From positions 1 through 33,834 of the IMG/VR virus record IMGVR_UViG_3300031576_000211: a stretch of DNA of 33,834 bases, one strand, 5' to 3'. Shown one piece after another: positions 9,521 to 29,389 of the stretch (position 1 is the stretch's first letter; every line of letters begins with the position of its first letter). Position numbers and translations under genes: made by a program. Source of the DNA: a virus. Below the pieces are notes generated by a model. The model was not told where the DNA came from. It worked only from the letters and a program-made list of their open reading frames with translations, and did not search any database.

Positions 9521-9842
9521 TGGGTGGTCCGTTCACCAGAACTTCGCCGATCCGAGGCATGAACATCCTCGGCTTCGCGGCATCTTCCATCTGTTGCATC
9601 TTGTCACGAGCCGCTTTGCCCATCTGGATCATGGCTCGTAGCCCAACTTCCGCCTCGTCGAGCGCCACGGTCATCTGAAACAGCTTCTCGCGACCCTCGG
9701 CATCGCGGGCCGGGGACTTGTGCCATTGATCGTGCAGACGGGCACGGTAAGCGTCGAACGCCTCACGCAACTGAGGATCGCTCAGAAGCGCCTCGGCACG
9801 CCGCGCGCGCTCAACTTCCTGTTCTGGCGTTCTCTCCGCCAT
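9513..9842 (-). CDS. Small coiled-coil head-assembly protein
   Basis: This is a 109-aa, highly charged and helical protein from MAERTPEQEVERARRAEALL. It contains DAYRARLHDQWHKSPARDAEG and a final RMFMPRIGEVLVNG. It overlaps the portal gene end by 32 nt and the scaffold gene start by 8 nt, so the three genes are coupled. Proteins of this size with a D-x-W motif are common between portal and scaffold genes in SU10-like modules. Its role in assembly is unknown. Confidence 0.65.
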   Translation of the reverse strand: MAERTPEQEVERARRAEALLSDPQLREAFDAYRARLHDQWHKSPARDAEGREKLFQMTVALDEAEVGLRAMIQMGKAARDKMQQMEDAAKPRMFMPRIGEVLVNGPPNA

Positions 9843-11871
9843 TCTGTGCCTTCATGGCCACGGACGCCAACATCTTGTGTCGGTCGTTCTCAATATCAGC
9901 CTGTACCTTCACACGGTCAAGGGCTATTTGAGCCTCGACCTTCATGCGTTCAAGCGCGATCTTGGCGCGCGTTTCCTCGGTCCGAAGCTGGATGTTGGCC
10001 TGTTTTTCCTGGGTTTCGAGCTGCATTCGTTGCTTCTCGATCTCCAATTTGGCCATTTCGACCTGCATCTGAGGAGATGGCGGCGGCTCCGGGGGCTGTT
10101 CGGGTGGCTCCGTGAAGAACAACTCGATCGGCTTCAATCCGGCGACCTCGGCGAACTTCATCACGGCACCGTGGATGTTCTGGTCGCTGACCATGTAGCC
10201 CTTGCCGGTCGCGATCAGCTTCTCCTGCACCGCCATGAGCGCCGCGATTGATGCCTGCATCTCGGTCTTGTTCGATGTGCCCAATCCAACCTGGACCGAA
10301 GCATCCATCTTGCCCTTCCAGTCGCGCGGATCAACGGCGATCCATTCGTTCCGCAGCCTGATCGTGCGTTCACGATCCTGGTAGCGCATCGCGAGCTCGT
10401 CGATGCCCTCGAAAAGCTCACGCACGCCCGTTTCGGCGAAGATGCGGGCGATCAACTCGATCCGCTGCTGGGAAGCGGCCATGATTTGGCTGATTCCACT
10501 TGCGGTTTTGTTGAGCGAATCCGCATGCAACCCCTGATTGTAGCGTGTGATTCCCGTTCGGGTCTCTCGCACGCTATCCAGATACTCGATCATGCCGAAC
10601 GAATGAGAAGGCACGGGGGTATGCGGGATCGGGAATACCACGTCGCCAGCCGAACCGAGCGTGCGAATGACCTGATTGGGCCTGGAAATCAGAACGTCGT
10701 CCAGATCGATGATGCGATTGATGTCCACGGCGGTCCGACCGTTGTTCGCGACGTACAGATTGTCGAGAATCTGTCTGATAATCGTGGATTTGATGAGTTG
10801 AAGATCCATCACCAGGTCGGCCAGGGACAGGCCGTAGAAGCGATGAGGCAGGGGCAGGGGGCACAGGGAGTAGAAGGGCGCCCGTTCGCTCGGCCAGTCC
10901 TCCTCCAGCAAGATAGCGCCGCCATCCTGACCACCCGTGATGACGCGCAGGAACTCAGCCTCTCCGTCGCCGTCGCGATCGACCCAAAGGTACGAATCCA
11001 CGATGGCCACGGGGCGCATCGAACGATCGGCGCCATTCCATGACGATTCATCCGCCGTTGTACGACTGGCATCGTTGGAAAACCGAGCCGTTCTCTGAAT
11101 GCCGAACTCGGTGGCCCAGGTCGGCAACCGGTTGACGAGATCGGCGTCGAAGCCCTGGCTCAGAAGCTCACCCTCGGTCATGTGCGTGCGATGATGCACG
11201 CTCCGGGCGTCATCGATACGAGTGGCTTCGCGCGAAATCAGGAACTCCTCGGGCGGCACGTTGGCGATGTGAATGCGACCCTGGCTCTTGACCCGCTTGA
11301 CCGTCACGTCATGCACGAAAGATGGCGGCGCGCCATTCTGGTCCAAGGGCGAACTTTCCGGGCGCTCGCTATGCGCCGTGACAGTAACATCCTGATCCGA
11401 CAGCAACATCTGGAACTGGAGATCGTCCAGATTCTCATATGTTTCACGTGAAACATTCTGAGTCGGGTCCCACCAGAGTTTGACGACGCCGACCTTGGAG
11501 ATCAGGGCATCCTTGAACCACGAATGAAGGATCGAGAAGCCCGGATTGTCGCGCATAAACACGTAGTTGGCGTAGTCCGTGCGCTGCTTGGCGCTTTGCT
11601 CGTCCTCGACGCCCGTGGGAAAGAACTGCGCGATGTGGTCACCTGCCGTGAAGATGCGGAGGAGCGACGGGAGAATGGATTCCACAACATCGGAAACCTC
11701 GCTCATCACCACGGACGAGCGGCCGCGCACTTCGTTCCCGAAGGGTTCGGCGAGGTAGTATTCCATGGCCTTGGCTTGTTGGGTCGCGACTTCGCCGGCG
11801 TAGAGAATGTCGGCGGCGGCGATCTCCGAGGCGATGATGGAGATCAGGTCGCGATCAGCCAGCTTGGCCAT
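9811..11871 (-). CDS. Portal protein, SU10-like
   Basis: This is a 686-aa protein from MAKLADRDLISIIASEI. The ATG at 11869-11871 is preferred over a TTG one codon earlier because it overlaps the stop of the AT-hook-like gene. It has the portal core: VVMSEVSDVVESILPSLL, NPGFSILHSWFKDALISKVG, NVPPEEFLISREA, RFYGLSLADLVMDLQLIK, and a NLYVANNGRTAVD region. The C-terminus (about 590-680) is a Gln/Glu/Lys-rich coiled coil after a PPEPPPSPQ linker. Portals form the dodecameric DNA channel and dock the terminase. A perfect parS palindrome lies inside the gene and encodes NVSRET. Confidence 0.85.
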   Translation of the reverse strand: MAKLADRDLISIIASEIAAADILYAGEVATQQAKAMEYYLAEPFGNEVRGRSSVVMSEVSDVVESILPSLLRIFTAGDHIAQFFPTGVEDEQSAKQRTDYANYVFMRDNPGFSILHSWFKDALISKVGVVKLWWDPTQNVSRETYENLDDLQFQMLLSDQDVTVTAHSERPESSPLDQNGAPPSFVHDVTVKRVKSQGRIHIANVPPEEFLISREATRIDDARSVHHRTHMTEGELLSQGFDADLVNRLPTWATEFGIQRTARFSNDASRTTADESSWNGADRSMRPVAIVDSYLWVDRDGDGEAEFLRVITGGQDGGAILLEEDWPSERAPFYSLCPLPLPHRFYGLSLADLVMDLQLIKSTIIRQILDNLYVANNGRTAVDINRIIDLDDVLISRPNQVIRTLGSAGDVVFPIPHTPVPSHSFGMIEYLDSVRETRTGITRYNQGLHADSLNKTASGISQIMAASQQRIELIARIFAETGVRELFEGIDELAMRYQDRERTIRLRNEWIAVDPRDWKGKMDASVQVGLGTSNKTEMQASIAALMAVQEKLIATGKGYMVSDQNIHGAVMKFAEVAGLKPIELFFTEPPEQPPEPPPSPQMQVEMAKLEIEKQRMQLETQEKQANIQLRTEETRAKIALERMKVEAQIALDRVKVQADIENDRHKMLASVAMKAQNGGENARTGS
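11440..11455. promoter_or_regulatory. parS: Perfect 16-bp parS palindrome
   Basis: The bases TGTTTCACGTGAAACA match, without a mismatch, the canonical bacterial chromosomal parS site recognised by ParB. The site is embedded in the portal reading frame, where it encodes NVSRET. An exact match to a 16-bp consensus is not expected by chance in 34 kb. ParB is a CTP-dependent clamp that loads at parS and spreads. The phage itself encodes a protein with a ParB-type box and HTH (27823-28569), but host ParB is the more obvious reader of a site this exact. Confidence 0.85.
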
Positions 11872-12044
11872 CAAGCTGCGTCCTTGCGCGGGCGGCCGGG
11901 ACCGCGACGGATCGGCTGGTCATCAACTTCCAATGACGAGTCCAACATCCGTTCCGCGACGGTCAGGCGTTCACCGAGGGATGCCATGAACCGTTCGATC
12001 GCATCGAGCCGGTTACTGAGGTCCATGTATTGCTTCATGCTCAT
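11871..12044 (-). CDS. 57-aa coiled-coil protein with AT-hook-like tail
   Basis: The protein begins MSMKQYMDLSNRLDAIERFM, predicted helical with heptad leucines and methionines, and ends with a basic RRGPGRPRKDAA. The G-R-P-R-K core is that of an AT-hook minor-groove DNA-binding motif. A GGGAGAG ribosome site lies 8 nt upstream of the ATG. The stop overlaps the portal ATG. Between terminase and portal, a DNA-binding helical oligomer could aid packaging or terminase-portal docking. That is inference from position. Confidence 0.6.
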   Translation of the reverse strand: MSMKQYMDLSNRLDAIERFMASLGERLTVAERMLDSSLEVDDQPIRRGPGRPRKDAA

Positions 12045-12065: not shown

Positions 12066-14462
12066 TCACACGACCCACCTGTAATCGTATTCCAGCTTCT
12101 TCGCATACGCGGCGCGCCCGACATCGCCCATCGCGAACGTGAGGCAGAAAGCATCCGCCATGTTGGGCGACGGAATGCCGCGCTTCTTCATGTCGCTCTT
12201 GGCCTCGACCTTGACCAGCCCACCAGTCGTGACAGTAAACCCCGGTCCTGTCAATTCCCCAACAAAGTCATCCAGCACATCATCGTTCTCGCGCGTCCGC
12301 TCGGGCAGCGCGCAATCCCGCGCCTCGAACCACTCCCTGGCCCGGAACCAAAGCTCGTCCCTGAGCCGCATATACTTGCCCTCGACCGCCGGGCTCTCCG
12401 CGACGTTTACCCCTCGCGCGGGCAAGCCCAACATTCTCAGCCGGTCGCACACACCCGCACCCAGCCCGATCACGTCAACCGCGATGAACGCCGGCTTCTC
12501 CCGCGCCGCATGATACTGACGCGCCACGATGTCCGCCGTCTGCATCGTGTCCTTGTCGCGCCACGTCTGCACGGGCTCGATAAGCACATTCCCCCGTCGT
12601 TTCGCCAGCGCACTCTCGTCATCTCCGAACCGCGCCACATCCACGCCCCACACCGACGCCTTGTCCGCCAACGGCATCACATCCCGTCCGATCGAGTCCA
12701 CCACCAGCGACATCGGAATCACCGAGTCCTCCTCGCCACTTGGGAACTGCCCCAATACCATGACCCGATACCAGTTCGAATCCTCCCCGAACTTGCGTTT
12801 GGCCTTCTCGATGAACTTGGGATCGGCATAGCGAGCATCCAGACACGAAACCGTCATCGTGCTCCAAAAATCAGACATCTTGTGAAACGCATCGTAAAAC
12901 CAGCCGCGCAATCGAGTAGGATTGCCCACCATGATTTGCTTGGAATTGCGTGTGGAAAGAGAGCCCTCCATGGTCTCGAATATCACGTCATCTATTCCCG
13001 ATGCTTCATCGGCGAGGCACAAAAGATGGTCACTATTACCACTTAAAAACACCCGTCCGTTTCGTCGCGTATAGAATGTCTGCCACGGCGTGGAAATACA
13101 CCACACCTCGCCATTGTATTGTTCTTGCTTTACATCACGCTTCTTTATGGCATACGGCGTCGATAATTTAATAGGCCAGGCCATAACATACGACTCTACA
13201 GAATTACACAGTCGTCCATTGATAACAATCTGTCCCGCCGTCCTGTTAACCCCAATCGTGCCCGATCGCCCAAGTTTCAGCATTATCTCCTGAATCTGGT
13301 CCATGAGAGCGGCATTGACGTTATAGAACTGACCACGTTTGCCATTGGCTTTTGTGCTGCCTTCGGCTTCCCAAAGCCCTTCGCACAGGGCTTCCAAGAT
13401 CGCCGGTTCGGCTTCCATGAGACACTCGGGCACAAGGCGATTGACTTGAAGCCGACCAACATTTTCGATCAGCCAAGCGGCAATATCTCGGTTGGAAAAA
13501 GCAAAATAGTCCTTAGCATACGTCCATTGCAAGGTCGTGCCATCAAGAAGGCCCTCAATCCACGCCATGCCCTTCGGCTTCGTCTGGTACAGCATGATCT
13601 CATAGAACACGCCCGTTACATGAGGTCTAATGCCGCCATCACCAATGAAAAAGCCGATGAAGCGCGCGAATTGTTCGGCGTCGAAACCGAACTTGGCAAA
13701 ACACGGCGGTACTTCAACAGGATCGCCCCGCCAGGAGCCGTGAGCCCGCAAGAGCCAGAAGTTCTCCCCCAGATCGGCGAACGGCACAAGTTCCGATGCC
13801 GACTTGCCCATGTTGGGCGCAACAGGCATCCGGTGCCCGTCCGTCACGGCAAAGTTGACCGACTTTCCATCAAAAACATTAAGTGTTCCCAAGAACGGAT
13901 AGCGATGCACAGACGTTACCGGCATCCACGCCAAATCATCCGTGATTAGATTGCTCGATAACACCCAATCACCGGCGCATATTTTACTAGACCCCAACCA
14001 TCCTCTATTTGTGAGTATTGTGTGTCCCGTTCCGAAACAGTGTATTCCTTGGAACGCCTCGGGATTCTCCTTCCTCGCCGTCCGCGCGATCGCGAAAGAC
14101 TCCTTGGGCGCTTCCCTCAACTCCAGCTTGTCCGACTTGATCTCGAACAAGCCCGCCAACTCCGGCTTCATGTGCCGTAACCACTTCGCGATCTCAGACC
14201 ACAACACGTCTTCCAGTTGATCCGCCTTCGGAGCCGTGCAAAGAACCTTCGCCGGAAACCGCGTCAGCAGCCACCAGATCACGACCCACGACAACAACGC
14301 ATCCTTCCCAACCCCACGACCCGCCTTGATCCCTACCGAATCCGCTTCCCCAATCCGCCGCAGCGCCTCCCCCTGCCAGCCATCCGGCTCGGCACCAATC
14401 ACATCCGTCACAAACAACAACGGATCATCACGGTACTTGAGCATGTTGGGCGCCGGAGGCAT
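12066..14462 (-). CDS. terL: Large terminase subunit carrying an intein
   Basis: The precursor has 798 codons. It translates to a 463-aa terminase, a normal TerL size, after removal of a 335-aa intein. The ATPase part has a Walker-A-like loop AGRGVGKD (47-54; Asp replaces the usual Ser/Thr) and Walker B LLCLADEASG (D485, E486). The RNase H-like nuclease has D608 in GVDVARFGDDES, D663 in IAVDVIGLG and D770 in NMADAF. The enzyme pumps and cuts genome DNA at the portal. The ATG at 14462 overlaps the stop of the presumed small subunit; a GTG one codon earlier is less likely. The extein junction reads QGIH/SDHLL. Confidence 0.9.
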   Translation of the reverse strand: MPPAPNMLKYRDDPLLFVTDVIGAEPDGWQGEALRRIGEADSVGIKAGRGVGKDALLSWVVIWWLLTRFPAKVLCTAPKADQLEDVLWSEIAKWLRHMKPELAGLFEIKSDKLELREAPKESFAIARTARKENPEAFQGIHCFGTGHTILTNRGWLGSSKICAGDWVLSSNLITDDLAWMPVTSVHRYPFLGTLNVFDGKSVNFAVTDGHRMPVAPNMGKSASELVPFADLGENFWLLRAHGSWRGDPVEVPPCFAKFGFDAEQFARFIGFFIGDGGIRPHVTGVFYEIMLYQTKPKGMAWIEGLLDGTTLQWTYAKDYFAFSNRDIAAWLIENVGRLQVNRLVPECLMEAEPAILEALCEGLWEAEGSTKANGKRGQFYNVNAALMDQIQEIMLKLGRSGTIGVNRTAGQIVINGRLCNSVESYVMAWPIKLSTPYAIKKRDVKQEQYNGEVWCISTPWQTFYTRRNGRVFLSGNSDHLLCLADEASGIDDVIFETMEGSLSTRNSKQIMVGNPTRLRGWFYDAFHKMSDFWSTMTVSCLDARYADPKFIEKAKRKFGEDSNWYRVMVLGQFPSGEEDSVIPMSLVVDSIGRDVMPLADKASVWGVDVARFGDDESALAKRRGNVLIEPVQTWRDKDTMQTADIVARQYHAAREKPAFIAVDVIGLGAGVCDRLRMLGLPARGVNVAESPAVEGKYMRLRDELWFRAREWFEARDCALPERTRENDDVLDDFVGELTGPGFTVTTGGLVKVEAKSDMKKRGIPSPNMADAFCLTFAMGDVGRAAYAKKLEYDYRWVV
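13035..14039 (-). mobile_element. LAGLIDADG intein inserted in terL
   Basis: This 335-aa element spans Cys142 to Asn476 of the precursor. Block A is CFGTGHTILTNRG, block B FAVTDGHRMPV (TDGH), block F VWCISTPWQTFYTRR and block G RVFLSGN, with a Ser as the first C-extein residue. Two LAGLIDADG-type helices, FIGFFIGDGG (from 268) and LCEGLWEAEGS (from 359), mark a homing endonuclease. All splicing nucleophiles are present. The usual penultimate His is Gly here, a variant known in active inteins. The element is AT-richer than its host gene, and it splits terL just before Walker B, a highly conserved site typical of intein homing. Confidence 0.9.
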
Positions 14463-14890
14463 CACTCCACAACCTTCCCCTCAATCACTCTCCCACTCGC
14501 CTCCCGCTCCCGCGCCAACCGCTCCGTCTCCAACAACACAGCCAGAAATCCCCCCGCCATCGCCCCCATCGTCGCCGCATCCCCAGCTACAACATCCGTC
14601 AATCCCGCCTTGCTCAGCAAAGCCTTCCCCGCCTCAAGCCTAACCCGATCACTATCCCCATGATCCCTCAAGTAACTCAACATCCGTATCGACGCCGGTC
14701 CCTCCCGTCGCGCCAACGCCCGTATGTAATCCAATGTCGGATCATCAGGGTCATCCCCACGTCTCAAATCCGGCGTAGGACGCCTTAACCCCGTACCCGT
14801 AGCCCCGCCATCAAGAACCTTAACCCCAGGCGCACTAGGCACGGCCGCCGCGTGTTCAGCCGCTATCTCCGCCAGCGTTCGCCCGCTCAT
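14462..14890 (-). CDS. terS: Probable small terminase subunit
   Basis: This 142-aa protein starts MSGRTLAEIAAEHAAAVPSA. The N-terminal helix is followed by an Asp/Arg-rich linker and a C-terminal helical domain (TLDYIRALARREGPASIRML; DRVRLEAGKALLSKAG) that ends with a coiled EREASGRVIEGKVVE. It lies directly before terL with an ATGA overlap and is the first gene of the late operon. The size fits TerS, which recognises packaging DNA as an oligomer. The HTH is not obvious, so the call rests mainly on position and size. Confidence 0.6.
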   Translation of the reverse strand: MSGRTLAEIAAEHAAAVPSAPGVKVLDGGATGTGLRRPTPDLRRGDDPDDPTLDYIRALARREGPASIRMLSYLRDHGDSDRVRLEAGKALLSKAGLTDVVAGDAATMGAMAGGFLAVLLETERLAREREASGRVIEGKVVE

Positions 14891-16814: not shown

Positions 16815-17129
16815 ATGAATACGAGCACGACGGGACAAGAGGCATTACAGCGCGCACGGGGCGGGATGTCGTGTATCAACGATGCGATCGTGATGAACGA
16901 GTTCGCGGCGCGCGGGATACCGCTTGCGGAGATTGATCCGCGCGAGAATGTGTTGACGTTCTGGGCGTGGAAGGCGTTGGGGCGCTCGGTACGCAAGGGC
17001 GAGCACGGGGTTCAAATCCTGACTTGGATTCCCGTGACGCGCGTCAATGCGGCGGGCGAGCGAGAGCCGGACGGGGTTCGGCCGAAGAACGCGACTGTGT
17101 TTCATATCTCGCAAACGGATGCGCGGTAG
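16815..17129 (+). CDS. ArdC N-terminal-like protein
   Basis: This 104-aa protein follows a GGGAGAATGAC leader. Residues 20-100 resemble the N-terminal ssDNA-binding-like domain of ArdC antirestriction proteins: a helical start, VLTFWAWKALGRSVRKGEHG, then VQILTWIPV and KNATVFHISQTD, which is the usual end of that domain. The metallopeptidase half of full ArdC (about 300 aa in total) is missing. Such stand-alone domains occur in phages. Protection of incoming DNA is plausible but unproven for the short form. Confidence 0.6.
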   Translation: MNTSTTGQEALQRARGGMSCINDAIVMNEFAARGIPLAEIDPRENVLTFWAWKALGRSVRKGEHGVQILTWIPVTRVNAAGEREPDGVRPKNATVFHISQTDAR

Positions 17130-27626: not shown

Positions 27627-27655
27627 ACGTTAAATGGCATGTGAAAAAATGTCAA
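27627..27655 (-). promoter_or_regulatory. Leftward promoter of the Cro-like gene
   Basis: On the minus strand, TTGACA (27655-27650) is followed after 17 bp by TAACGT (27632-27627). The predicted start is about 2-3 bp from the ATG at 27618. AAAATGTC at 27646-27653 and 27667-27674, exactly 21 bp apart, may be the operator half-sites for the divergent pair. Confidence 0.55.
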
Positions 27656-27674
27656 GCGTCTAGGACAAAATGTC

Positions 27675-27704
27675 TTGACACGCTCATTGGGCGCTGTCTA
27701 CTGT
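27675..27704 (+). promoter_or_regulatory. Rightward promoter of the ParB-like operon
   Basis: TTGACA (27675-27680) is a perfect -35 box. TACTGT (27699-27704) after 18 bp is a moderate -10. It fires away from the Cro-like gene, with its -35 beginning directly after the second AAAATGTC copy. Confidence 0.55.
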
Positions 27705-27727: not shown

Positions 27728-27749
27728 GAGATCGGCCCGGGCCGATCTC
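27728..27749 (+). repeat. 22-bp perfect palindrome in the 5' leader
   Basis: An 11-bp arm beginning GAGATCGG and its exact reverse complement meet without a spacer at 27738/27739. In RNA this gives a 9-bp stem with a CCGG loop, placed about 20 nt past the predicted start of the rightward transcript and 73 nt before the ParB-like ATG. It may be a regulator-binding dyad or a leader hairpin. Confidence 0.65.
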
Positions 27750-27822: not shown

Positions 27823-28569
27823 ATGAAGGCACATTCTGCGGCCGCGATCTTCCCGCTTATGACAGGCGCCGAGTTTGAAGCGCTGGTCGAGGACATTGAA
27901 CAGCACGGACTACGTGAGCCGATCGTCGTTTTCGACGGGCTGATTCTCGATGGCCGTAACCGCTTGGCGGCTTGCGAGCGACTCGGCAAGACGGTCGCGA
28001 CTATAGCTTGGGATGGGCTCGGCTCGGCCGAGGCTTATGTCGTCTCGAAAAATCTGCACCGGCGCCATTTGAACACGAGTCAGCGCGCGATGATTGCGGC
28101 GCGGCTCGCAAATAGGAAACGCGAAGAAAGTCTTCTTATTGGCCGACAACAGCGAAATTCTCCCGATACGCAAATTTGCACATCGGCCTCGGTCAAACAG
28201 ACGGCCACGCTTCTTAAAGTCAGTCCCAGGTCTGTAAGTCAAGCTAAGCGCGTTCTCCGCGACGCGGATGCGACTGATGTTGCCCGTATCGAGAAGGGAG
28301 AACGGACAGTGGATTCTGTTGTAAAGCGTTTACCAAAGACGAAGCCCAGCACTATGAAGGAAGCCAAACGGAGAGATACGCTGCAAATGAACGCCAAACT
28401 TTGGCGCTCATTCAAGTTCGCGATCGAGGCTTTGTGCAGTCTGCCGGCACCCGCAGATGTTATGCGCGTAGTGCGCGGATTTGACAAGGGCGGTCTTGTA
28501 GAACGGAAACTGGATCAATCTTATAACTGGCTGAAAGGGTTTGAACATGAATGGCGGAACCGTGACTAA
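27823..28569 (+). CDS. ParB-like protein with N-domain and HTH
   Basis: This 248-aa protein is taken from ATG 27823, with GATGAAGG 1-8 nt upstream; an in-frame ATG at 27760 is an alternative. Residues 10-75 form the ParB N-domain, with FEALVEDIEQHGL, the ILDGRNRLAA box (41-50) and a RHLN-containing box (KNLHRRHLNTSQR, 76-88). An HTH at about 123-146 (SVKQTATLLKVSPRSVSQAK) occupies the slot that reads parS in true ParB. The C-terminus is basic. It is the first gene of the rightward block. No ParA partner was seen. Confidence 0.75.
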   Translation: MKAHSAAAIFPLMTGAEFEALVEDIEQHGLREPIVVFDGLILDGRNRLAACERLGKTVATIAWDGLGSAEAYVVSKNLHRRHLNTSQRAMIAARLANRKREESLLIGRQQRNSPDTQICTSASVKQTATLLKVSPRSVSQAKRVLRDADATDVARIEKGERTVDSVVKRLPKTKPSTMKEAKRRDTLQMNAKLWRSFKFAIEALCSLPAPADVMRVVRGFDKGGLVERKLDQSYNWLKGFEHEWRNRD

Positions 28570-29389
28570 GATGCGTCCGAAGGTTGTCGAACCGATCGAG
28601 CGGGTCATGCTGACGCCGGCAATGGCGACGGAATTGTTGGAAAAGAACACCAACAATCGACCGGTCTACGATATGCACGTTCATCGCATCGCGGCTCAGA
28701 TCAAAACCGGCAAGTGGAAGTTCAACGGCGATACGATCAAGGTCTCCGAGACCAACGATGTGCTCGATGGCCAACACCGATGCTGGGCTGCGATCGAGGC
28801 TAACACTCCGATTGAGACCGTCATCGTGCGTGGTATCAAGCGCGATGCGTTCACCACGATTGATACTGTTCGTCGGCTTCGCTCGGGTGCCGACACGATC
28901 GCACTGAGTGGTACGACGCGATACCGCAACGTGATAGCGTCGGCGCTCATATGGTTGCTCCGCTGGCAGCGCGGCTATCTGCCGGATATAAAGAAACCGC
29001 AGAACAAAATTGAGAACTCGGATATTGAGGTCGCTTTCGTGGAACACCCTCAGATCATGCGCGCTGTCGAGCGCGCCATGAAAGTCAATCGGCTAGCCAA
29101 TCCATCTATCATCGCGTTCCTCTACTATGTCCTGAGTAACCGCGACCAGGAGTTGGCTGAACGAATGGTGACAACGTTGGAGGACCCATCGAGAGTTGCC
29201 ATAAGCGATCCGTTCTTCCGGTTGCGGACCTACTTCACCGCTGAACATCACAAGCGCAAAGAGCCGGTGTTGACGATTGCGCTTGCCATCAAGGCGGCGA
29301 ACGCAGCGCATCATGGCAAGAAGGTCGAAATTCTGAATTGGAAGAATCAGGGGAAGGTCGCGGAGAAATTCCCGACCCTTGATTTCTGA
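28547..29389 (+). CDS. Second ParB-fold (ParB/Srx-like) protein
   Basis: This 280-aa protein starts at ATG 28547; TTG 28541 and ATG 28571 are alternatives. Residues 20-100 give MLTPAMATELLEKNTNNRPV, the GKWKFNGDTI segment, the DVLDGQHRCWAAIEANTP motif (DGQHR core) and ETVIVRGIKRDAFTTID. This is the order of the phage ParB/sulfiredoxin-like family. The C-terminal 170 residues are helical. It overlaps the first ParB-like gene by 23 nt. The composition is somewhat AT-richer than nearby. Confidence 0.7.
   Translation: MNGGTVTKMRPKVVEPIERVMLTPAMATELLEKNTNNRPVYDMHVHRIAAQIKTGKWKFNGDTIKVSETNDVLDGQHRCWAAIEANTPIETVIVRGIKRDAFTTIDTVRRLRSGADTIALSGTTRYRNVIASALIWLLRWQRGYLPDIKKPQNKIENSDIEVAFVEHPQIMRAVERAMKVNRLANPSIIAFLYYVLSNRDQELAERMVTTLEDPSRVAISDPFFRLRTYFTAEHHKRKEPVLTIALAIKAANAAHHGKKVEILNWKNQGKVAEKFPTLDF

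Follow-up and report, generated by a model that had tools for sequence, protein, structure and literature searches.

A host-type parS site in the portal gene of an IMG/VR phage and the possible use of such sites by phages as handles for host ParB

Introduction

ParB proteins bind a palindromic site, close on the DNA as a CTP clamp and spread over the flanking sequence. P1, N15 and some actinophages are phages or phage-plasmids that carry ParABS systems of their own. On bacterial genomes, TGTTTCACGTGAAACA has been applied as the parS consensus, after Livny et al. 2007 (PMC10197239). A phage that uses the host protein has also been described, since Spo0J (ParB) is reported to enable entrapment of the phi29 chromosome in the spore (Meijer et al. 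2005, as cited in PMC9437464). The phi29 genome holds four one-mismatch parS sites, one of them in the connector (portal) gene. Another position in this family lies in the endolysin gene, where the site is exact in B103, BSP11, Goe1, Chedec 11 and hmny2 and has the form TGTTTCACGTGGAACA in phi29 and Goe6. According to our reading of the sequences, it falls in the linker that joins the lysozyme part to the C-terminal repeats.

In this study, we analysed the IMG/VR record IMGVR_UViG_3300031576_000211, a viral stretch of 33,834 bases referred to here as the window. An earlier note on this DNA had pointed out a parS palindrome in its portal gene and knew of no phage system built in this way. The phi29 parS sites, together with the use of Spo0J as related in the citing paper, show that a precedent exists.

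Results

The features of the window are collected in Table 1. On the sequence level, chromosomal-type parS is TGTTTCACGTGAAACA or a close variant of it, and the window carries the exact form, as the earlier note had said. It is the sole match in the window when up to three mismatches are allowed, and the palindrome that surrounds it is the second longest perfect one in the palindrome scan. Markov models of order 1 to 3 predict between 6e-6 and 7e-6 exact copies in a window of this kind, so that the claim of a negligible chance occurrence also held. The site lies in frame in the portal gene, where AAT GTT TCA CGT GAA ACA encodes N-V-S-R-E-T at residues 140-145. If the peptide is taken as given, these codons have a probability of 3.3e-5 under the codon usage of the phage itself, and the six-codon stretch has the second rarest codon usage among 682 such windows of the portal gene.

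Table 1. Positions of the parS site and related features in the window
Feature	Positions	Strand	Basis
Portal protein gene, SU10 type, contains parS	9811..11874	-	Pfam PF23899, PHROG 1216, codon context
18-bp perfect palindrome ATGTTTCACGTGAAACAT, with parS as its core	11439..11456	.	palindrome scan
parS, exact 16-bp consensus TGTTTCACGTGAAACA, palindromic	11440..11455	.	exact-match scan
22-bp perfect palindrome GAGATCGGCCCGGGCCGATCTC, candidate operator	27728..27749	.	longest perfect palindrome of the window
ParB-like and helix-turn-helix-like protein, unlikely to read parS	27823..28569	+	PHROG, TIGR00180

The portal gene matches Pfam SU10_portal with an E-value of 1.3e-200 and the portal PHROG with an E-value of 5e-150. 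Profile matches also identified an SU10-type capsid, a terminase, a primase-polymerase and RusA among the other genes of the window. The gene of the terminase large subunit (12066-14465, minus strand) is apparently interrupted by an intein: the intein-like insert starts with Cys (CFGTGHTILTNRGW...), contains a LAGLIDADG_3 domain and ends in ...FLSGN before Ser. A short open reading frame at 16815-17129 (plus strand) matches the ArdC N-terminal (anti-restriction) domain.

Relatives of the portal reach at most 49% identity, and the palindrome is absent at the homologous codons wherever codons were listed. In 99 portal-family loci (1.07 Mb), the exact 14-bp core was not found and a single one-mismatch site was detected. 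Likewise, 18 bacterial-genome loci with related portals, from contigs mostly labelled Alphaproteobacteria, had no parS within two mismatches. Four relatives (L133, L134, L135 and L136) have R-E-T-Y or V-T-R-E at the homologous place, encoded by other codons. In a 12-member portal alignment, E144 and Y146 are invariant and the residues that precede them vary. Three other contigs with the same portal type carry an exact parS elsewhere: L021 in an intergenic stretch, L022 at the start of a gene beginning MFHVKQ, and L091 within a peptidase-like gene that reads it in frame as VSRET. The earlier note had proposed looking for the palindrome at the same codons of related portals, and this check came out negative. 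Because homologous portals lack the palindrome and some relatives carry parS at other places, parS does not, on these comparisons, belong to the portal family as such. Closer relatives of the window phage were found neither via the portal nor via the ParB-like protein.

The earlier note had also attributed a ParB-type N-domain to the protein encoded at 27823-28569 (Table 1), and this assignment is weak. On the one hand, the protein matches ParB-like PHROGs with an E-value of about 1e-5. On the other hand, it scored 20.1 bits against TIGR00180, whose cut-off is 58.45, it gave no Pfam ParB match, and a regular-expression search found no canonical ParB motif (GERR-type) in it. The second proposed ParB-fold protein (28541-29389) has a PHROG of unknown function as its main match and a ParB-like PHROG match of E 2e-6. 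A sequence search against solved structures returned no match for either protein, and the single-sequence structure model of the first had a mean pLDDT of 42, too poor for use. The reported absence of ParA was borne out, since no ParA-type Walker A motif occurs in the six frames of the window. Thus the window has no ParA and no canonical ParB, and its parS does not adjoin a parB gene, the distance to the ParB-like gene being 16 kb. The longest palindrome of the window, GAGATCGGCCCGGGCCGATCTC, sits about 74 bp upstream of the start codon of the ParB-like gene, and a further TGTCAAG/CTTGACA inverted repeat lies nearby at 27650-27680. From its position, we consider GAGATCGGCCCGGGCCGATCTC, a candidate operator with a putative function, a more plausible target of the ParB-like protein than parS. 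The suggestion that the phage loads a ParB-like clamp of its own was not upheld, considering the score far below the cut-off, the distance of 16 kb and the separate palindrome upstream of the gene.

The exact 16-mer was present in 315 of 50,697 named phage records, a redundant collection of 2.3 Gb in which about 0.5 sites are expected; three control palindromes gave 0, 0 and 0 in the same records. Carriers include virulent Listeria phages, phages of Gordonia, Microbacterium, Arthrobacter, Lactobacillus and Roseobacter, as well as phi29-like phages, microviruses and inoviruses. The Escherichia, Salmonella and Klebsiella groups, with hundreds of records in the collection, are outside the ten largest carrier groups, so that each has at most six carriers. 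To our knowledge, Enterobacterales have no chromosomal ParABS. A search of 72,556 annotated plasmid records with a slightly stricter threshold found the exact site in 18, some of them chromosome-sized. This rarity would be unexpected if parS were generally useful for being partitioned.

In IMG/VR, at least 120 stretches carry the exact 16-mer. The reversed palindrome used as a control occurs once, and a palindrome two bases away occurs in three contigs, one of which has eight copies. This contig (IMGVR_UViG_3300037423_000235; L366, L369) carries several of its copies of TGTTACACGTGTAACA just outside long open reading frames, and the palindrome may be an operator or centromere of this phage itself. 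A sub-sample of IMG/VR defined by the flanking bases held 31 stretches, from which we roughly extrapolate some 4,000 contigs; without the gene family that dominates the sub-sample, the figure falls to some 2,000. Among the matches listed, 146 sites comprise 61 in-frame VSRET sites, many in linker-like stretches, and 56 intergenic sites; the other 29 fall in MFHVK frames, and several of these are placed at a start codon. One site per locus is the rule among these matches (104 of 121 parS loci, counting the window's own copy). Several copies are present in the 6.2-kb inovirus bajarodino virus 3 (L271), with exact parS at 704, 740, 3041, 3583, 4380 and 5921, and in a contig with five exact copies within 800 bp (L017:2657-3444) that also encodes a terminase large subunit. 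The 4.4-kb SpV4 and B103 carry parS as well, and no parB is annotated in these two or in the six-site inovirus. Host contamination of IMG/VR was considered as a source of parS and rejected. No ParA, ParB or RsmG signature was detected in 120 parS loci among the matches listed, and therefore the loci are not simply host origin DNA; in addition, isolated phages carry parS too.

Synonymous conservation could be followed in a large phage primase-helicase family (L243/L274, e.g., L243:1192-4041), in which parS lies in frame at one fixed position within EPVSRETW. The family was gathered by peptide patterns outside the site and without reference to parS. Among the 79 members covering the site, 35 encode VSRET and 33 of these 35 keep the 14-bp core; after clustering of the VSRET members at 90% nucleotide identity, the core is kept in 11 of 12 clusters. 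Elsewhere in the primase, only 2% of the invariant four-fold or six-fold residues use a single codon throughout, and the parS motif is the most codon-conserved among 60 four-codon windows. Where a member has VPRET instead, its site is of the TGTTCCACGTGAAAC type. The family combines repeated loss of parS with clear synonymous conservation, and, as far as codon patterns tell, its parS is held as DNA against synonymous drift.

Discussion

We have shown that a phage with an SU10-type portal carries an exact host-type parS within its portal gene. Considering the codon and survey data, we hold with strong confidence that the site is under selection, and we regard binding by host ParB as likely. If ParB binds, a role in partition or retention would be somewhat more probable than another ParB-based role. 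Taken as a whole, the selected site would probably load host ParB-CTP clamps and serve as a cis handle by which the phage DNA is positioned or retained. Recruitment of host ParB is the part of the earlier interpretation that we find best supported, and the loading of a self-encoded clamp is the part that we set aside. Recruitment is favored by the enrichment of exact parS in phages, which is hundreds-fold or higher, and by its retention despite synonymous drift in the testable cases, phages without a ParB of their own included. The phi29 precedent, the varied location of the sites and the phages without annotated ParB likewise make clamp loading by host ParB the most likely mechanism. The scarcity of parS in portal-family relatives and on annotated plasmids counts against this reading.

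In this reading, selection on the 16-mer would act on the DNA sequence and not on the encoded peptide. When the phage DNA enters, host ParB would bind the palindrome, close as a CTP clamp and spread along the flanks, and host ParA and/or SMC may then treat the clamp-coated genome like an origin region. The phage genome could in this way be positioned and kept in a growing or dividing cell, and passed to daughters or dormant forms until lysis. As parS would act in cis on the entire genome, it could be placed in whichever gene offers a permissive stretch, and the varying positions among phages are consistent with a cis handle. The portal copy would use the variable stretch that runs into the invariant Glu-x-Tyr.

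Several other explanations have to be weighed against this recruitment for retention. The site might be selected as a sink or decoy that draws host ParB off the chromosome as phage copies build up, so that chromosome segregation and division stall to the benefit of the phage. The virulent phages among the carriers would fit this, as would the multi-copy phages, with six sites in the 6.2-kb inovirus and five in L017. However, a sink should favor arrays, and the single site of most phages, the window included (104 of the 121 loci among the matches listed), counts against it. Inoviruses also usually do not kill the cell, and the phage with the most copies belongs to this group. We therefore consider a sink unlikely. 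Local gene control, in which spreading ParB would repress or time nearby phage genes such as late structural genes and couple them to the state of the host, seems a little less likely still. It is in line with the MFHVK-frame sites (29 of 146, several at a start codon) and the intergenic sites (56 of 146) among the matches listed, and with a Butyrivibrio phage in which parS overlaps a predicted promoter. However, the gene context varies among endolysin, connector, primase, capsid maturation protease, portal and a position just upstream of a tail chaperone, and the parS of the window is internal to a structural gene instead of being placed at a promoter.

Chance would require that the portal tolerates V-S-R-E-T-Y and that its codons drifted into the palindrome. 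The homologues with R-E-T-Y or V-T-R-E in other codons (L133-L136) place this peptide within the natural range, and the portal-family relatives are mostly without parS. Yet the codon probability of 3e-5 and the 6e-6 expected copies make such drift improbable, and by the IMG/VR control counts (1 and 3), far fewer than 1% of the viral contigs with exact parS are accidental. We give even less credence to the idea that the phage's own ParB-like protein reads parS as part of a self-encoded system without ParA. Its weak ParB-like matches speak for this, but the TIGR00180 score of 20 against a cut-off of 58, the missing canonical motif and the missing ParA speak against it. In addition, 16 kb separate its gene from parS, a 22-bp palindrome lies upstream of the gene itself, and the parS 16-mer also occurs in phages in which no such protein is annotated.

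Beyond the window, we see about an even chance that in many unrelated bacterial viruses, among them tailed phages, inoviruses and microviruses and many with hosts that do not form spores, the host ParB-CTP clamp is recruited by one or a few selected host-type parS sites, which would serve as a viral centromere. The window would be one member of this broad class, which, phi29 apart, seems to be undescribed; we found no survey of parS in phages in the open-licence literature, and this novelty is provisional. Were host centromere sites generally kept by phages, the exploitation of ParB as a host factor would extend to viruses far beyond phi29. One could then ask if incoming phage DNA is positioned or protected by ParB and SMC, if a parS enables virulent phages to persist in cells that grow slowly or divide, and why the host sequence is so much rarer on plasmids than on phages. 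The exact 16-mer offers a simple sequence rule for finding such phages, and recoding of the site can leave the protein unchanged.

In summary, the site can be placed among the described ParB-family systems. Noc binds a related palindrome, ATTTCCCGGGAAAT, with a ParB-family reader, and the window has no such site within two mismatches. The 16-bp palindrome is identical to that of chromosomal ParABS, but the window site is on a phage, away from the host origin, with no reader protein encoded nearby. P1, N15 and the actinophages share with the window a centromere-like site on phage DNA. However, their site differs from the host consensus and is paired with phage ParA and ParB, whereas the window has the host consensus, no ParA and no canonical ParB. 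Phi29 differs in having four sites, a sporulating host and Spo0A control; the window carries a single exact parS in an unrelated podophage-type genome with an SU10 portal, and nothing in it points to a spore-forming host. In the phi29 family, structural and lysis genes hold parS and no parAB of its own is annotated; the window likewise combines a host-consensus parS on phage DNA with the lack of phage parAB. Both carry host-type parS in frame in phage genes (VSRGT and VSRET in the phi29 family), the portal or connector gene included.
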